Below are positions 1,703 to 47,386 of a stretch of DNA of 63,972 nt, one piece after another. The stretch is from NCBI GenBank assembly GCA_035461765.1, contig DATHUY010000101.1:1-63972 (forward strand), written 5' to 3'. Every line of letters starts with the position of its first letter. Within the stretch, counting starts at the first letter, position 1. Made by a program: the position numbers and the translations under genes. The notes beneath the pieces were generated by a model. That model saw nothing but the letters and a program-made list of their open reading frames with translations. It ran no database searches and had not been told where the DNA came from. The DNA comes from Longimicrobiales bacterium. Lineage in GTDB: Bacteria > Gemmatimonadota > Gemmatimonadetes > Longimicrobiales > RSA9.

Positions 1703-2051
1703 GTTGCGGACTCCTCTTCCATGGGCGGAGTTTTCGTGGCAATGGCGGGAAGTGTAGCCGCGCCCGGCCGGGGGCGGAACCCCCTTCGGACGCGGAACCC
1801 ATTCTGCATCTTGGCCGAGCCGTCCATGCAGCCCGACTGGCGCCGCGCCAGAGGGCGTCCGGACCATCCCGCGCGCAACGGTGCCAGGGGCCGCCGACAC
1901 GGCGGCGTCTGCCATGGTGTTGGGCAACATCATGGTCCGTTGGAGCAATATGCAGAATGGGTTCCGCGTCCGACGGGAGGAGGCGTGGCGGCGGGCGCCC
2001 GTCCACCCACGGGTTTCGTGCGGCCGCACACGCCTGTTACTTTGTGTGCAC
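1703..2051. other. Intergenic region carrying an inverted repeat pair
   Basis: These 349 bases between the unknown gene (-) and tRNA-Gln (+) hold no convincing gene. Long frames run through on both strands, but they only translate the repeat arms and GC-rich sequence. The main content is the perfect inverted repeat described at 1787-1972. The promoter of the 1016-1702 gene should lie here, but I could not single out a convincing -10/-35 pair. Confidence 0.6.
1787..1972. repeat. Perfect 23-bp inverted repeat (dispersed family A)
   Basis: The left arm, 1787-1809, begins CGGACGCGGAACCCATTC and ends TGCAT. The right arm, 1950-1972, is its exact reverse complement. About 140 bases lie between them. 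The same core recurs at 34888-34909 (22 bases identical) and 37030-37052 (three mismatches), always outside recognised coding sequence, so this is a dispersed repeat. The paired arrangement resembles a small REP-like or miniature mobile element, or a long-loop hairpin in RNA. No transposase is linked to it here. Confidence 0.85.
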
Positions 2052-2122
2052 TCCCGGGTCGTCCAATGGCAGGACCGCAGACTTTGGATCTGCTAATGGT
2101 GGTTCGAATCCACCCCCGGGAA
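2052..2122 (+). tRNA. tRNA-Gln (anticodon TTG)
   Basis: All four arms fold. The acceptor stem is TCCCGGG with CCCGGGA, the D stem GTCC/GGAC, the anticodon stem GCAGA/TCTGC with loop CTTTGGA (anticodon TTG), and the T stem GGTGG/CCACC with loop TTCGAAT. The discriminator base is A, and no CCA is encoded, so the CCA-adding enzyme is needed; a cca-type gene lies at 14367. The tRNA reads CAA and CAG. It stands alone on the plus strand, convergent with the ispE operon. Confidence 0.96.
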
Positions 2123-2238: not shown

Positions 2239-3123
2239 TCAGCTCAATAGCCGGGTCCGGGTGACGATCGCCGCGACATCCGGATGAGCCTCCTCGACGC
2301 GACGCGCCGCCTCATCGGCCGCCGCCACATCACCAAACACGGCGAATACCGCGCTACCGGTGCCCGTCATGCGAGCCATCAGCGCACCGGCATCGTCGAG
2401 AGCTGTCCTCAACTCCGCGAGCCGCGGGTGCCTCTCGAATATTATGGTCTCGAACTCATTCGCGGCTTCAGCGGCGATATCGTTCCACGTAGTCGGCACC
2501 CGAAGGAGCTTCGATGCGATGGAGCGTTCCTCCGCGAGGGCTGCGTAGGCCTCGGCAGTCGACACGCGCTCGGGCGGCACGGCCAGAACGACCGCGGCGG
2601 CGGGAAGCGGGGGAAGCGCCATCATGCGCTCACCGCGGCCCCAGGCGAGCGCCAGCGGGATGTCAGCGAGGAAGAACGGGACATCGCTGCCGAGCCGGAC
2701 ACCCAGCGCGAACAGCTCGTCGTCCGACAGCGAGCCCTCGGAGAGTTCGTTCAGCGCGCGCAACACAGCCGCAGCGTCGCTCGATCCGCCGCCGAGTCCG
2801 GCGCCCGCCGGGATCCGCTTCACCAGCCGGATGTGGACTCCGGAGCCCAGGGTGGCGGCAGTGGCGAACATGGATGCGGCGCGGAAAGCGAGGTTCTGCT
2901 CGAGAGGTCCGAGATCGGGCGCTGCGCCGGATTCTTCAGGCGGCAGCGCCACCTCGAGCTCGACGCCGGACGCGGTACGCACGATCTCTATTTCATCGGC
3001 CAACTCGAGTCCACAGAAGAGGGTCTCGATCTGATGGTAGCCGGTGACCTCACGCGCGAGCACATGCAGCGTCAGATTCAGCTTTGCATGCGCGAGGATT
3101 CTGTACGGGATGTCGCCGGACAT
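2239..3123 (-). CDS. ispE: 4-diphosphocytidyl-2-C-methyl-D-erythritol kinase
   Basis: A GHMP-family kinase that phosphorylates CDP-methylerythritol at the 2-hydroxyl in the MEP pathway to isopentenyl diphosphate. The 294 residues contain the substrate lysine in AHAKLNL (about residue 14), the glycine-rich ATP motif PAGAGLGGGSSDAA (105-118) and the GSDVPFF segment with the catalytic aspartate. The ATG overlaps the upstream stop by one base (TGATG), so it is translationally coupled. It is the last gene of the hflX-pdxJ operon. IspE products feed the polyprenyl chains used by the UbiA enzyme at 43 kb. Confidence 0.95.
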   Translation of the reverse strand: MSGDIPYRILAHAKLNLTLHVLAREVTGYHQIETLFCGLELADEIEIVRTASGVELEVALPPEESGAAPDLGPLEQNLAFRAASMFATAATLGSGVHIRLVKRIPAGAGLGGGSSDAAAVLRALNELSEGSLSDDELFALGVRLGSDVPFFLADIPLALAWGRGERMMALPPLPAAAVVLAVPPERVSTAEAYAALAEERSIASKLLRVPTTWNDIAAEAANEFETIIFERHPRLAELRTALDDAGALMARMTGTGSAVFAVFGDVAAADEAARRVEEAHPDVAAIVTRTRLLS

Positions 3124-22871: not shown

Positions 22872-23045
22872 GAATATTCACCACAGAGCACCCGGAGCAC
22901 ACAGAGGGGCGCCGCTGCGTAAGCCGAACGCGCCCAGGAAGCGCCCCGCGTTCATTGTTACAAAACGGATTTCGGCGCTGCCGGACGCCAGGACGCAGCA
23001 CCGCGAAGCGCTCTGTGTGCTCCGGGTGCTCTGTGGTGAATATTC
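22872..23045. repeat. Perfect 35-bp inverted repeat (dispersed family B)
   Basis: The left arm, 22872-22906, begins GAATATTCACCACAGAGCAC and ends ACACAGAG. The right arm, 23011-23045, is its exact reverse complement. A 104-base centre separates them, and similarity extends a few bases outside each arm. A weaker pair with the same TTCACCACAGAGCAC core is at 36689-36929. The structure is like a transposase-free miniature element or a long hairpin. No target-site duplication is obvious. Confidence 0.9.
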
Positions 23046-33736: not shown

Positions 33737-34885
33737 ATGGCAAAAACACAGCGGTTCGGCACGCTCGCGATCCACGCGGGCCAGCATCCCGAAGAGACGA
33801 CCGGCGCCATCATGCCGCCGATCTTTCAGACATCGACGTACGTGCAGCCAAAGCTTGGCGAGCCGAAGGGCGGATACGAGTACGCGCGCGTGCAGAATCC
33901 GACACGCGAGGCGCTGGAGCGCAACGTCGCAGCCCTCGAGAGCGGCACGCACGGGATGGCGTTTGCCAGCGGCATGGCGGCGATCGGCGCGATCGTGCAG
34001 AGGCTCTCAGCCGGCGACCACGTGATCTACGAGGAGAACGTGTACGGCGGCACGCACCGCTTCTTCGACAAGGTCATGCGCCGGCTCGGTCTCGATTTCA
34101 CGCCGGTAGACTCCAGCGACCCGCAACGTGTCGAGGATGCGATCCGGCCGAATACGAAGCTGATCCATCTCGAAACGCCGACCAACCCGATGATGAAGCT
34201 GACGGACCTGCGCGCGGTCGCGGAGATCGCCGCGCGTCAGGACGTGCAGATCGTGGTCGACAATACATTCGCGTCACCCTACAACCAGCGGCCGCTCGAG
34301 CTGGGCGCGCACATGGTTGTGCATTCCAGCACCAAGTACCTGAACGGACATTCCGACGTCGTCGGCGGGATCGTGGTGACGAACGACGACGGCATCGCCG
34401 AGGAGCTGCGCTTCCTCCAGAAGGCCGCCGGCGCGGTGCCCGGTCCGTGGGACGCCTGGCTGGTGCTGCGGGGGACGAAGACGCTCGACGTGCGGATGGA
34501 GCGACACAACCGCAACGGCGCACGCGTCGCCGAGTACCTGGCCGCCCACAGCGGCGTGCAGAAGGTGTTCTATCCCGGCCTGAGCGATCATCCCCAGCAT
34601 GAGCTCGCGAAGCGGCAGATGAAGGGGTTCACCGGAATGATCAGCATGGAGCTGGGCTCGCTGGAGCGGGCGCAGCGCGTGGTGCAGGGGACGCGGCTAT
34701 TCTCGCTGGCCGAGTCACTCGGCGGGGTCGAGTCGCTCATCGGACATCCGGCCATCATGACGCACGCGTCGGTGCCGAAGGAGATGCGCGATCGCATGGG
34801 AATCAGCGATGGCCTGGTAAGACTGTCGGTCGGCATCGAGGATGTGGAGGATCTCCTCGAGGACCTCGAGACTGCGCTGAAATGA
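33737..34885 (+). CDS. metB: Cystathionine gamma-synthase / trans-sulfuration PLP enzyme
   Basis: A 382-residue Cys/Met-metabolism PLP enzyme. It has IPPIFQTSTYV-like MPPIFQTSTYV near the N-terminus, ETPTNPMMKLTDL, the PLP lysine in HSSTKYLNGHSDVVGG (about 200-215), and the C-terminal LGGVESLIGHPAIMTH and RLSVGIED. It may form cystathionine from activated homoserine, or cleave cystathionine (MetC/CGL); the motifs do not separate these. The ATG at 33737 is used, with a weak GGAACGG site. The stop is followed at once by a repeat (34888) and overlaps an ATGA of the next open frame. Confidence 0.9.
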   Translation: MAKTQRFGTLAIHAGQHPEETTGAIMPPIFQTSTYVQPKLGEPKGGYEYARVQNPTREALERNVAALESGTHGMAFASGMAAIGAIVQRLSAGDHVIYEENVYGGTHRFFDKVMRRLGLDFTPVDSSDPQRVEDAIRPNTKLIHLETPTNPMMKLTDLRAVAEIAARQDVQIVVDNTFASPYNQRPLELGAHMVVHSSTKYLNGHSDVVGGIVVTNDDGIAEELRFLQKAAGAVPGPWDAWLVLRGTKTLDVRMERHNRNGARVAEYLAAHSGVQKVFYPGLSDHPQHELAKRQMKGFTGMISMELGSLERAQRVVQGTRLFSLAESLGGVESLIGHPAIMTHASVPKEMRDRMGISDGLVRLSVGIEDVEDLLEDLETALK

Positions 34886-34887
34886 AT

Positions 34888-34909
34888 CGGACGCGGAACC
34901 CATTCTGCA
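34888..34909 (+). repeat. Copy of dispersed repeat family A
   Basis: Twenty-two bases beginning CGGACGCGGAACCCATTC are identical to the arm at 1787. This copy starts three bases after the metB stop codon. It has no nearby inverted partner. Confidence 0.8.
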
Positions 34910-34971
34910 GATTGGCGCATCGAGGCAGCGCGGCGCCCCATCGTCTTATCGAGCGCAGCTGGCCCTTCGGA

Positions 34972-36688: not shown

Positions 36689-36929
36689 TTCACCACAGAG
36701 CACAGGGAGCTCACGGAGGACGGGATCGGGGAGATCACACGACCGAGAAGTTGATACCGCGTGCACGTTGAAATCTGAAGTCATTTATGCCACGCGCCAC
36801 GCCTCAGTAGTTTTCCCACGGCAAACGGTCAGGCACGGCGAAAACGCCGATGGCTGCCACCGACTGAGATATACGTCGGCCAGCGTCACCGCCGTAACTC
36901 TGTGTGCTCTGTGTGCTCTGTGGTGAATA
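36689..36929. repeat. Imperfect inverted repeat, family B
   Basis: The left arm, 36689-36718, begins TTCACCACAGAGCACAGG. The right arm, 36898-36929, ends CTCTGTGGTGAATA and has a direct triplication of CTCTGTGTG-type words. The two arms match at about 25 of 30 positions, with the outer TTCACCACAGAGCACA perfect. The centre is 179 bases. It is the same family as the perfect pair at 22872-23045 but more decayed. Confidence 0.8.
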
Positions 36930-37029
36930 TCAGTACGGTTGCCCGTCCACGATATCAGTTCCATATGCGGAACGGGATGCTCACTCGTGCGTATCCGGGA
37001 GGGACGGTGCCATGACGCCCCGGGCCATC

Positions 37030-37052
37030 TTGCAGAACGGGTGCCGCGTCCG
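37030..37052 (-). repeat. Diverged copy of dispersed repeat family A
   Basis: Read on the plus strand, TGCAGAACGGGTGCCGCGTC matches the reverse of the 1787 arm with three mismatches over 23 bases. It lies 64 bases upstream of the M48 start. Confidence 0.7.
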
Positions 37053-37115: not shown

Positions 37116-38105
37116 ATGTCCGAGCCCATTGACGCCCGCTCGCACCGCATTCTGCGCGACATTGATCCCAGCGCGTGGGAACACCCTGCAGATCGTGCCG
37201 CCCTGATGGCCGCCCGTCGCATCCCGGTCTTCGACCAGGTGCTGCGCACGATCTTCGGACTTTTCGGTGAAAAGCCGATCCGCCTGGCGTTCCAGGCCAA
37301 TGCCGTGCGTGTCGGGCCGCGTCAGTTCCCGGAGGTGTGGAGCCACTACCTCGAGGTGTGCCAGACGCTGGACGTGAAGACGCCGCCCGAGCTCTTCATC
37401 TCGCAGACGCCGCTGGTAAACGCGGGTGCCTACGGCATGGACCGCCCTTTCATCGTGATGAACTCGGGCACGATCCGTCTGCTGGACCGCGACGAGATGA
37501 CCTACATCCTCGGCCATGAGCTCGGCCATGTGATGTCCGGCCATGTGCTGTACCGCACCATGATCGTCCTTCTCATGCAACTCGCCCAGATGGGGTTCCC
37601 CGTGGTGGGGATTGCCGCGCGGGTCGTGCTCGTCGCACTGCTCGAGTGGCAGCGCAAGAGCGAGCTCTCCGCCGACCGCGCCGGCCTGCTCGCCCTCCAG
37701 CAGCCGGAGAAGACCCTCCATACCTTCATGCGCCTCGCGGGCGGCGGCCATGACACCGAGACCAACCTCAACGAGTTCCTGATCCAGGCCGACGAATACC
37801 GCGACGGCGGCGACGCGGCGGACATGGTCTTCAAGGTCCTCAACCTCCTCGGCGCGACGCACCCGTTCCACGTCCTGCGTGCCGCAGAGCTGCGCGACTG
37901 GATCGAAGCCGGCGACTACGACCGCGTCCTCCGCGGCGAGTACCGCCATCGCACGGACGGCGCGGCACCCTACAAGGAGGATCTCGCGGCGGCCGCCCAG
38001 GCGTACCGCGAAGATGCCCAGACCTTCGCGCGACAGTTCAGTGACGCGCTGCGGCAGACCCGCGAACGGTTCACCGAGGGATTCCGGCGCACCACGGACG
38101 CGTAG
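37116..38105 (+). CDS. M48 family zinc metallopeptidase
   Basis: A 329-residue peptidase of the Ste24/HtpX type. The zinc motif HELGH is at 134-138, and the third ligand Glu183 is in KSELSADRAG. A hydrophobic segment between them (about 143-177) probably forms one or two membrane helices. The C-terminal 80 residues are charged and helical (AAAAQAYREDAQTFARQFSDAL). The family degrades membrane or envelope proteins. The ATG at 37116 has a clear CGAGGAG site; upstream codons belong to the repeat region. Confidence 0.9.
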   Translation: MSEPIDARSHRILRDIDPSAWEHPADRAALMAARRIPVFDQVLRTIFGLFGEKPIRLAFQANAVRVGPRQFPEVWSHYLEVCQTLDVKTPPELFISQTPLVNAGAYGMDRPFIVMNSGTIRLLDRDEMTYILGHELGHVMSGHVLYRTMIVLLMQLAQMGFPVVGIAARVVLVALLEWQRKSELSADRAGLLALQQPEKTLHTFMRLAGGGHDTETNLNEFLIQADEYRDGGDAADMVFKVLNLLGATHPFHVLRAAELRDWIEAGDYDRVLRGEYRHRTDGAAPYKEDLAAAAQAYREDAQTFARQFSDALRQTRERFTEGFRRTTDA

Positions 38106-45319: not shown

Positions 45320-47386
45320 ATGGGAGCAGCGGAACCGAAGAGCGGAAGGGATCGGCGGCGCATCATCATCGAAGGCGTGCAGCCTGAAGTGGCATGTGGT
45401 CGCTTCCCGTGCAAGCGCGTGGTCGGTCAGGATGTGGTGGTAGAGGCGGACATCTTCACGGACGGGCACGAAGCGATATCGGCTCGCCTGCTCTCGCGCT
45501 TCGAGCGGGACCGCAGGTGGCGTGAACAGGTCATGGAGCCGTTGGGCAATGACCGCTGGCGCGCGTCGTTCACGGCCGAGCGGCTGGGCCGATACCGCTA
45601 CACGATCGAGGCGTGGCTCGACACGTGGAAGGGGTGGCGCCGTGACATGCAGAAGCGGCTGGCCGCATACCAGGATGTGAGCGTCGACATCATCACGGGC
45701 GGGCAGCTGCTGGAGGCCGCCGGGCGCCGCGCGCTGGGTCGCGACGCCAGCACGCTCGCACAGATCGCGCAACGCGTTCAGGACCGCGACGTCGACATCA
45801 CGGAGCGGATCCGGCTCGTCATGGGCGACGATGTCGACGCGCTCGCCCTGCGTTACCCCGACTTCACTCATGCCACGCGTTACGAGCCGGAGCTCGAGGT
45901 CGCCGTCGATCCGGTGCGTGCGGCGTTCTCTGCCTGGTACGAGCTGTTCCCCCGCTCCGCCGCGCCGGAACCCGGCCGCCACGGCACGTTTGCGGACGTG
46001 GAGCGCCGGCTCGACTACGTCGAGCAACTCGGCTTTGATGTGCTCTATCTGCCGCCCATCCACCCGATCGGGTTCCTCAAGCGGAAGGGACCGAACAACA
46101 GCGAGTCGGCCGGCGAGCTGGACGTCGGCAGCCCCTGGGCGATCGGCAGTGCCGAGGGCGGCCACATGTCCGTACATCCGGACCTCGGCACGCTGGACGA
46201 CTTCCGCCGCCTGGTGCGCTCGGCCCGCGACCGCGGCATCGAGGTGGCACTCGACATCGCGTTCCAGGCTGCACCCGACCACCCGTACGTCGAGGAGCAC
46301 CCCGACTGGTTCCGCGCGCGCCCCGACGGTACGATCCAGTACGCCGAGAATCCGCCGAAGAAGTACCAGGACATCTATCCGTTCGACTTCGAGTCGAGCG
46401 ACTGGCGCGCGCTGTGGACGGAGCTCGCTGCCGTCTTCGAGTTCTGGATCGATCAGGGCGTGCGCATCTTCCGTGTCGACAATCCCCACACCAAGCCGTT
46501 CGGCTTCTGGGAGTGGTGCCTGGGGAGACTCCGCTCGAAGAATCCGGACACGATCTTTCTCGCCGAGGCGTTCACGACGCCGCGTCGCATGGAGCGGCTG
46601 GCGAAGCTCGGCTTCAATCAGTCGTACACGTACTTCGCCTGGCGCCACAGCAAGGCCGAGATCACTGAATACATGCGCGAGCTCACCACGACCGGGACGG
46701 CCGAGTTTTTCCGGCCGAACTTCTGGCCGAACACGCCCGACATCCTCACGGAGTACCTCCAGACGGGCGGCAGGGCCGCGTTCATGAACCGCGTGGTGCT
46801 GGCCGCTACGCTGTCGTCATCATATGGGATTTACGGCCCCGCGTTCGAGCTCATGGAGCACGAGCCGCGCGAGCCGGGCAGCGAGGAGTATCTGGATTCC
46901 GAGAAATACCAGATCCGCAGCTGGGACCTGGATCGCCGTGACAGCCTGCGCCATCTCATCGCGCGGATCAACCGCATTCGGCGCGCCAACGCAGCCCTGC
47001 ATGACAACCGCACGCTCCGTTTCCACGCCGTGACGAACGGCGGCGCCGATGTGCCGGACCTGATCGCATATACGAAATCGAGCGCCGCGGCACCCGTGAC
47101 ACCCACGGGCCGCGCGCTGTACAGGTACGAGGATTTCAAACCCCCGCGCCCGGGGCCTGAGAACAACGTGATTCTGACGGTGGTGAACCTCGACCCGGCG
47201 CACAGGCACACGGGCTGGGTGGAGCTGCCGCTCGCGCAGCTGGGGCTCGATGAGAGTCGGGCCTATCTGGTTCATGACCTGCTCGGCGACGCACGCTACA
47301 CCTGGCAGGGCGCATGGAACTACGTGGAGCTGGACCCGAGCGTGGTCCCCGCGCACATCTTCCGCATCACACAGCAGTCCGAATAG
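45320..47386 (+). CDS. glgE: Alpha-1,4-glucan:maltose-1-phosphate maltosyltransferase
   Basis: Transfers maltose from maltose 1-phosphate onto alpha-1,4-glucans, the polymerising step of the trehalose-to-glucan (GlgE) pathway. The 688-residue GH13 subfamily 3 protein has a long N-terminal domain. Its barrel carries YLPPIHPIGFLKRKGPNN, the nucleophile aspartate in FRVDNPHTKPF (about residue 390), the acid/base glutamate in LAEAFT (about 415) and the C-terminal beta domain. The ATG at 45320 directly follows GGGGGAGGA; the frame is open far upstream, but that part is antisense to the ICMT and cupredoxin genes. It is the first gene of a seven-gene operon. Confidence 0.95.
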   Translation: MGAAEPKSGRDRRRIIIEGVQPEVACGRFPCKRVVGQDVVVEADIFTDGHEAISARLLSRFERDRRWREQVMEPLGNDRWRASFTAERLGRYRYTIEAWLDTWKGWRRDMQKRLAAYQDVSVDIITGGQLLEAAGRRALGRDASTLAQIAQRVQDRDVDITERIRLVMGDDVDALALRYPDFTHATRYEPELEVAVDPVRAAFSAWYELFPRSAAPEPGRHGTFADVERRLDYVEQLGFDVLYLPPIHPIGFLKRKGPNNSESAGELDVGSPWAIGSAEGGHMSVHPDLGTLDDFRRLVRSARDRGIEVALDIAFQAAPDHPYVEEHPDWFRARPDGTIQYAENPPKKYQDIYPFDFESSDWRALWTELAAVFEFWIDQGVRIFRVDNPHTKPFGFWEWCLGRLRSKNPDTIFLAEAFTTPRRMERLAKLGFNQSYTYFAWRHSKAEITEYMRELTTTGTAEFFRPNFWPNTPDILTEYLQTGGRAAFMNRVVLAATLSSSYGIYGPAFELMEHEPREPGSEEYLDSEKYQIRSWDLDRRDSLRHLIARINRIRRANAALHDNRTLRFHAVTNGGADVPDLIAYTKSSAAAPVTPTGRALYRYEDFKPPRPGPENNVILTVVNLDPAHRHTGWVELPLAQLGLDESRAYLVHDLLGDARYTWQGAWNYVELDPSVVPAHIFRITQQSE

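Follow-up and report, generated by a model that had tools for sequence, protein, structure and literature searches.

Dispersed hairpin-forming repeats of a Longimicrobiales genome as the ends of a REPIN-like family, probably cognate to a resident RAYT/TIRYT-type transposase

The main finding of our analysis is that the short inverted repeats seen in a 63,972-nt stretch of Longimicrobiales DNA (hereafter the window) very probably form the ends of non-autonomous, REPIN-like elements, a family whose cognate transposase is a resident HUH (Y1) enzyme of RAYT/TIRYT type. The elements consist of paired end modules whose arms covary, they recur in many copies without target duplication, and their presence at particular sites differs between two species of the genus, namely the genome from which the window comes (the own genome, G000) and the single same-genus relative compared (G001), taken to be Gemmatimonadetes bacterium SH-MAG3 on the strength of identical contig positions. 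Two transposase-type genes lie between end modules at conserved loci, and the own genome contains a dispersed family for each of these genes. From this we infer that the RAYT spreads the elements.

In the window, a perfect 23-bp inverted pair (1787-1809 and 1950-1972), an exact copy of its 18-mer core at 34888 and a diverged copy at 37035-37052 (2 mismatches in 18, or 3 in 23) are all present as described in an earlier note on this DNA. Four window matches at up to 3 mismatches, where 0.13 are expected and none of 100 shuffles reached four, place the repeat beyond chance. A supposed weak relative at 22976-22990 does not belong to the family, being absent from the window matches at up to 3 and up to 4 mismatches; on reading, it has little in common with the core past CGGACGC and was rejected as a copy. 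The 22-23 bp repeat of the earlier note is thus real, but it is only the outer tip of an end module of about 52 nt, and the unit is an inverted pair of such modules spanning about 131 or 187 bp. The features of the window are the following:

1787..1972, no strand assigned: complete element of 186 bp, its two 52-nt end modules inverted around a spacer of 82 nt
1787..1838, plus strand: left end module of this element, with a CGGACGCGG tip and CATG at module positions 39-42
1921..1972, minus strand: right end module of this element, with a CGGACGCGG tip and CATG at module positions 39-42
2052..2122, plus strand: tRNA-Gln gene, a neighbour and not part of the element, 79 nt past its right end
34888..34939, plus strand: lone end module (half-element), 0 mismatches to the longer pattern described below, 2 nt past a stop codon
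37001..37052, minus strand: lone end module (half-element), 0 mismatches to the longer pattern, with GGCC, CATG and CGTCCC at their module positions

The module at 34888-34939 has CGCCCC at positions 47-52 and CAGC where CATG is expected. Both half-elements are absent at the same locus in SH-MAG3, and the complete element has a 186-bp counterpart there at the same locus (G001:C345:3040-3225). As a single strand, the complete element is predicted to fold strongly (z of -7.97 as DNA and -7.95 as RNA, with 0 of 200 shuffles as good). The claim that all copies lie upstream of a coding start is partly wrong for 1787-1972, since it is bordered by a minus-strand ORF, whose 5' end our gene caller places at 1702, and by the tRNA-Gln gene, which had been overlooked; the ORF beyond the tRNA (2239-3123) is on the minus strand, so that its 3' end faces the element. 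The placement of the 34888 copy just past a stop codon holds (TGA at 34883-34885, 2 nt before the module, in a gene that the earlier note named metB), and an ATG at 37116 comes 63 nt after 37052.

The own genome (4.68 Mb in 171 contigs, with 4.86% contamination) contains 130 half-sites matching the core CGGACGCGGAACCCATTC at up to 3 mismatches (67 in forward and 63 in reverse orientation), and the reversed pattern has none. A second, longer pattern gave 128 half-sites against 10 in the control, 94 of them without mismatch at its fixed positions, and in this looser count about 10 of the 128 are expected by chance. Half-sites often pair head to head, and at least 47 complete elements were extracted from the own genome, drawn from the best 100 of the 130 half-sites, and 10 from SH-MAG3. 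These 57 remain from 67 candidate pairs, of which ten were dropped because they were alternatives nested within one element or, in the case of L098, a doubtful 211-bp pair. Three pairs found by the longer pattern alone (C121, C147:27903 and C159) stand outside the 47, and the element statistics refer to complete elements, leaving aside half-elements and the wider pairs L091 (476 bp) and L110 (about 1.46 kb).

Two size classes are apparent, of 122-143 bp (n = 31, with 22 of exactly 131 bp) and 185-199 bp (n = 26), and the spacer between end modules is typically 27 or about 83 nt. Read from the tip inward, the end consensus of about 52 nt comprises CGGACGCGG (positions 1-9), a partly variable stretch, GGCC or similar (27-30), CATG (39-42) and YGYCCC (47-52); in some SH-MAG3 elements the tip is CGGACCTGG instead. 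This module is a consensus and not a strict rule, with CATG at position 39 in 57 of the 114 family-A ends, CAT in 74 and YGYCC at position 47 in 51. The elements have no evident coding capacity and are mostly intergenic, some gene calls by our home-made caller overlapping them.

The arms of an element pair over about 30 bp, and they do so with clear covariation. In the short class (22 of the 31, those measuring exactly 131 bp), 12 of 32 pairs have changed on both sides, for a score of 0.166 against 0.083 when shuffled; among 23 long sequences (22 of the 26, plus L249, which was found later), 14 of 30 pairs have done so, for a score of 0.248 against 0.094. None of 500 shuffles scored as high in either class, and slid controls gave 0.017-0.077. 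A weaker measure, the count of further pair types, was matched by 5 and 33 of 500 shuffles in the two classes. Single 52-nt modules do not fold beyond chance (n = 114, mean z of -0.22, five below -2).

The interiors are far less uniform. Their median identity across elements is 0.57 against a shuffle mean of 0.54, and they fold mildly above control (z below -2 in 14 of 57 versus 3 of 40, p 0.03). Nearest interiors in the own genome are at the median 74% identical, and the closest two share just 85%, which gives no sign of recent activity. The 34 constant arm positions are unchanged in 36 of the 47 own-genome elements, with a mean of 0.51 changes where a rough reckoning predicts 4.7 if the arms drifted like the interiors, a contrast that is inflated, at positions 1-14 above all, by the selection of elements through their ends. 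The conservation of the arms hints at a constraint that is still continuing. At the locus of 1787-1972, 10 of the 32 arm pairs differ from the SH-MAG3 counterpart: in pairs 18 and 20 both sides have changed and pairing persists, in one pair a single side has changed, and the remaining seven are unpaired in one genome or the other, so that pairing in the inner arm is loose.

A RAYT-type Y1 transposase, which the earlier note had proposed to look for, is present twice, in each case between end modules of the same kind. Of 13 genomes searched with Pfam Y1_Tnp, three contained matches (the own genome, SH-MAG3 and G013), and the own genome and SH-MAG3 each have two RAYT-type genes, every one of them between two end modules. 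A 1082-bp unit bounded on either side by family-A modules contains RAYT1 (G000:C107:99580-100527), and one of 1072 bp bounded by modules of a second family, B, contains RAYT2 (G000:C107:1806-2738, L158). The SH-MAG3 units occupy the same loci with 1081 and 1071 bp; the loci are syntenic, and protein matches number two per genome, one at each locus. Module positions 39-42 read CATG in the four RAYT2 ends and CATT or AATC in the RAYT1 ends. An automatic flank comparison found both own-genome units to exceed shuffles; by this crude test the inverted flanks of the SH-MAG3 units did not, and their modules were recognised by position.

The four proteins, of about 305-320 aa, have NCBIfam REP_Tyr_transpos as their best match (E 5e-18 to 1e-15), with scores of 58-65 bits that fall under the curated cut-off of 80, and two of the four are below the cut-off for Pfam Y1_Tnp in hmmscan. 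Among PDB entries there was one match up to E 1, TnpArep 4er8 (E 0.0023). H58-x-H60, Y117 and N121 are invariant in all four, and the HUH and Y---N motifs are present, with the next P kept in the two RAYT1 proteins only. C-terminal matches to HTH_23 are weak (E 3.6e-4 to 0.12, all below the Pfam cut-off), as are those to HTH_28. RAYT1 is 72.5% identical between the two genomes. The RAYT2 proteins are 47.2% identical, about the same as either is to RAYT1 (44-50%), and this divergence at a shared locus points to very fast change or to replacement in place.

In the own genome, the RAYT2 ends (CGGACCTGGCTTCACTTT) also form a dispersed family, with 37 half-sites against 0 in the control. Eleven family-B elements were read (10 distinct, from the own genome), with CATG at 38-40 in 15 of 22 ends. 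Thus, the two transposase-type genes of the own genome are paralogues, and each is matched by a separate repeat family, RAYT1 by family A and RAYT2 by family B. In SH-MAG3, the pattern taken from the own-genome RAYT2 ends, and not from those of SH-MAG3 RAYT2, gives 2 half-sites (one pair) versus 2 in the control. As separate observations, the flanking DNA of the RAYT2 locus (G000:C107:1806-2738 and G001:C214:2192-3106, L156) is 86% identical beside proteins that are 47% identical, and at one place a family-A and a family-B element are 66 bp apart (G000:C56:46083-46213 and 46280-46453).

Family A has a narrow distribution. Across 61 genomes (the own genome and 60 relatives), more than two pattern matches occur in the own genome and SH-MAG3 only. 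One or two matches are found in 21 of the other 59 relatives, 24 in all and every one at 2 mismatches, compared with 9 for the reversed control, a slight excess that does not amount to a family there. Within the same GTDB family, ten further genomes together contain 3 matches to the pattern, where the control gives 2, and they yielded no RAYT (Y1_Tnp search over seven, protein search over nine). The exact 22-position degenerate pattern occurs in 8 stretches among contigs of 84,980 species, all of them in SH-MAG3 (records of the own genome may be left out of this set), and in none of the viral contigs.

RAYT relatives themselves are more widespread, and a protein search found them in 20 of 395 genomes of the phylum. 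These gave 22 loci outside the genus, of which 20 have an open frame, the one at L207 evidently being the wrong frame. Inverted flanks exceed shuffles at 14 loci, and 11 of the 14 carry GGGGTCAGA, which fits the published TIRYT motif GGGGWSAS; within family A this motif occurs in 3 of 57 elements only and was rejected as their mark. In Gemmatimonadota outside the genus (L203-L226), inverted repeats of the GGGGTCAGAGTC type flank RAYT-like genes, with several tandem units of this type at L209 and L216 and a different unit at L223.

Seven own-genome elements or halves were traced in SH-MAG3, where two of the sites are occupied (1787-1972 and the second of L116) and five are not, the latter including two L095 elements that share one flanking gene with SH-MAG3 and whose absence is judged from that side. 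Two further shared loci (L111/L140 and L086/L136) come from the comparison of element loci and are outside this count. Both arms at L111/L140, and both at the second of L116, have CGGACGCGG in one genome where the other has CGGACCTGG. Neither a clean empty site nor a transposition intermediate was seen.

Elements occur in all four arrangements of neighbouring genes, often close to a 3' end. Neighbouring 3' ends lie 1-15 nt from the element in 36 of 63 cases, and 10 more run into it; 5' ends lie within 15 nt in 3 of 50, and 6 more overlap (36/63 versus 3/50, Fisher p 3e-9, with gene positions from a home-made codon-score caller that missed the tRNA and whose calls overlapping elements are doubtful). 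The element at 1787-1972, with the 5' side of an ORF on one hand and tRNA-Gln on the other, is an exception to this placement. At the junctions, direct comparison of flanks showed no target duplication reaching 4 nt in any of 47 own-genome and 10 SH-MAG3 elements, and target-site duplications of 4-9 nt, or of 3-5 nt at offsets up to 5, were rejected on this basis; a 3-nt direct match at offset 0 was found in 2 of 47 elements where 0.15 are expected. The element tips (CGGACGCGG, or CGGACCTGG in some SH-MAG3 elements) have no GTAG tag. For the two outer bases, own-genome elements mostly have G followed by T/C and SH-MAG3 elements AG, and CGTC can be read across part of the own-genome junctions (flank plus first C), not in SH-MAG3.

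Of 114 element junctions, 14 have tandem repeats that extend outward, compared with 3 of 454 control pieces (p 3e-8), for example at L087, L090, L107, L134 and L138 and also at L097, L104, L121 and L129. Nine of these 14 have a 9-nt unit and the others one of 8, 11, 12 or 18 nt; the unit often opens with CGG or CGGA, the first bases of the element itself, and continues with flank sequence. A recurrence of end modules at 40-nt steps is seen at L112.

How might such elements have spread? Where the DNA is single-stranded, as in the lagging-strand template, the arms would form a long hairpin by pairing. The transposase would then probably recognise the paired or single-stranded ends, cleave via its tyrosine, and move or copy the elements in trans, the targets being other intergenic sites and often ones directly after a stop codon. 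Less certainly, old copies would not merely decay, their arms perhaps being kept intact and paired by continued action of the transposase or by a role in the host. A classical MITE moved by a double-strand DDE transposase that recognises terminal inverted repeats would share the size of 122-199 bp, the inverted ends of about 30 bp, the mostly intergenic location and the lack of evident coding capacity, and the 3-nt flank matches could be seen in the same light. However, the lack of longer target duplications, and a gene between the same ends that encodes a Y1/RAYT-type protein and not a DDE enzyme, make this reading improbable. A structured regulatory RNA of the riboswitch or sRNA type, which would be in keeping with the strong predicted fold and the covarying helix, seems more improbable still, as the interior is hardly conserved, a symmetric element occurs in all four gene arrangements and the same ends flank a transposase-type gene. 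Rfam 15 at curated thresholds returned the tRNA as its sole match, and the binding site or regulatory RNA that the earlier note had entertained is unsupported as a primary identity; an RNA or protein-binding role may have been acquired after insertion. Chance or an assembly artefact might come to mind with so many contigs and some contamination, but the pattern controls, and a second assembly in which the element recurs at its locus, leave it a negligible prospect.

A greater challenge to transposase-driven spread comes from the idea that the elements are hairpins maintained by the host at gene 3' ends (as mRNA stabilisers, barriers to transcription between convergent genes, or protein sites), selected locus by locus, with a link to the RAYT that is historical. 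The crowding of gene 3' ends near the elements, the intact arms around interiors that have diverged widely, and the two fully compensated pairs among the 32 at 1787-1972 all speak for it. Yet only two of the seven traced sites are occupied in SH-MAG3, so that most sites are dispensable; the counts of intact arms are biased by the picking of elements through their ends; and seven other arm pairs are unpaired in one genome at the very locus that shows compensation. Ordinary intrinsic terminators were also rejected as an identity, TTTT lying within 14 nt of the end in 0 of 94 own-genome and 1 of 20 SH-MAG3 ends. We regard host maintenance as a genuine though doubtful possibility. Rather more speculatively, the HTH-type RAYT and its genome-wide hairpin family could have become a stable and partly domesticated system. 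Old sites would then undergo continual selection or rewriting of both the arm sequence and its pairing, and the tandem units of about 9 nt (CGG/CGGA) outside some ends would be scars left by repeated processing of the ends, or iterons bound by the HTH domain. This somewhat unlikely suggestion of arm maintenance draws on the uniform arms, the saturated interiors and the change from CGGACGCGG to CGGACCTGG on both arms at two shared loci.

The preferred reading, a REPIN-like family cognate to a RAYT, has precedents. REPINs, doublets of REPs that form hairpins and are associated with RAYTs, have been described in Pseudomonas fluorescens SBW25, and their movement in trans by RAYTs has been proposed (PMC3116915). 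As characterised there, they resemble family A in their inverted doublet unit, conserved ends, less conserved spacer in which length and hairpin capacity matter, compensatory hairpin changes, lone halves as remnants, RAYT-specific repeat groups and extragenic location; family A likewise consists of high-copy, extragenic, hairpin-forming inverted doublets. Unlike the SBW25 REPINs of that account, a family-A end alone forms no significant hairpin and lacks GTAG, the arms are about 30 bp and the units about 131 or 187 bp long, and the RAYT has a weak C-terminal HTH-like match. The unit therefore behaves like a REPIN and not like a strict REP, for which a self-palindromic unit and the GTAG tag are missing, and the REP-like idea of the earlier note, right in kind given the RAYT genes, was too narrow in this respect.

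By gene arrangement, this is a TIRYT/TIRtron system, and strictly a TIR-type (TIRYT) REPIN-like family. In the main text of PMC3733652, TIRYTs or 'TIRtrons' have a RAYT-like Y1 gene enclosed by long terminal inverted repeats that bear no relation to GTAG REPs, with dispersed TIR families that are partly dimers, as here, and GGGGWSAS is common to some or most published TIRs, not all. Family A differs from that description in its rarity of GGGGWSAS, its two size classes and the two paralogous systems in one genome; the string 'Gemmatimon' is absent from that main text. The proteins also recall TnpA-REP subclass 2.1, which in the text of PMC6006769 drawn on here has C-termini like HTH_23, HTH_28 or Bac_DnaA_C and no REP-like sequences nearby. 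The likeness, judged from motifs, lies in the length, the HUH and Y---N motifs and the weak C-terminal HTH_23/HTH_28 matches, and the difference in the dispersed hairpin-forming families of the RAYT genes here. Small palindromic elements offer a further comparison. ERIC, NEMIS and similar palindromic elements are small and intergenic and have inverted ends. Judged by their descriptions, family A is set apart from them through the Y1 gene between the same ends and the lack of target duplication; ERIC and NEMIS are named as MITEs in the main text of PMC3733652.

If the proteins do belong to subclass 2.1, a new point would be that HTH-bearing RAYT relatives have large, hairpin-forming, covarying families. 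The finding also places a dispersed-hairpin system in Gemmatimonadota, for which our literature search, judged from its listings, returned no prior report. Two paralogous systems in one genome, together with a sister species with changed arms, provide a natural test of RAYT/repeat co-evolution, and the same two-genome setting provides one of what keeps REPIN arms intact past insertion. Finally, a second, unrelated inverted pair (TTCACCACAGAGCACAGG.../...CTCTGTGTGCTCTGTGGTGAA) lies in the window to the left of the half-element at 37001-37052, with arms of 30 nt at 36689-36718 and 36898-36927 that are 87% complementary and separated by 179 nt; the stretch containing it spans 494 bp between flanking matches in the window versus 72 bp in SH-MAG3.
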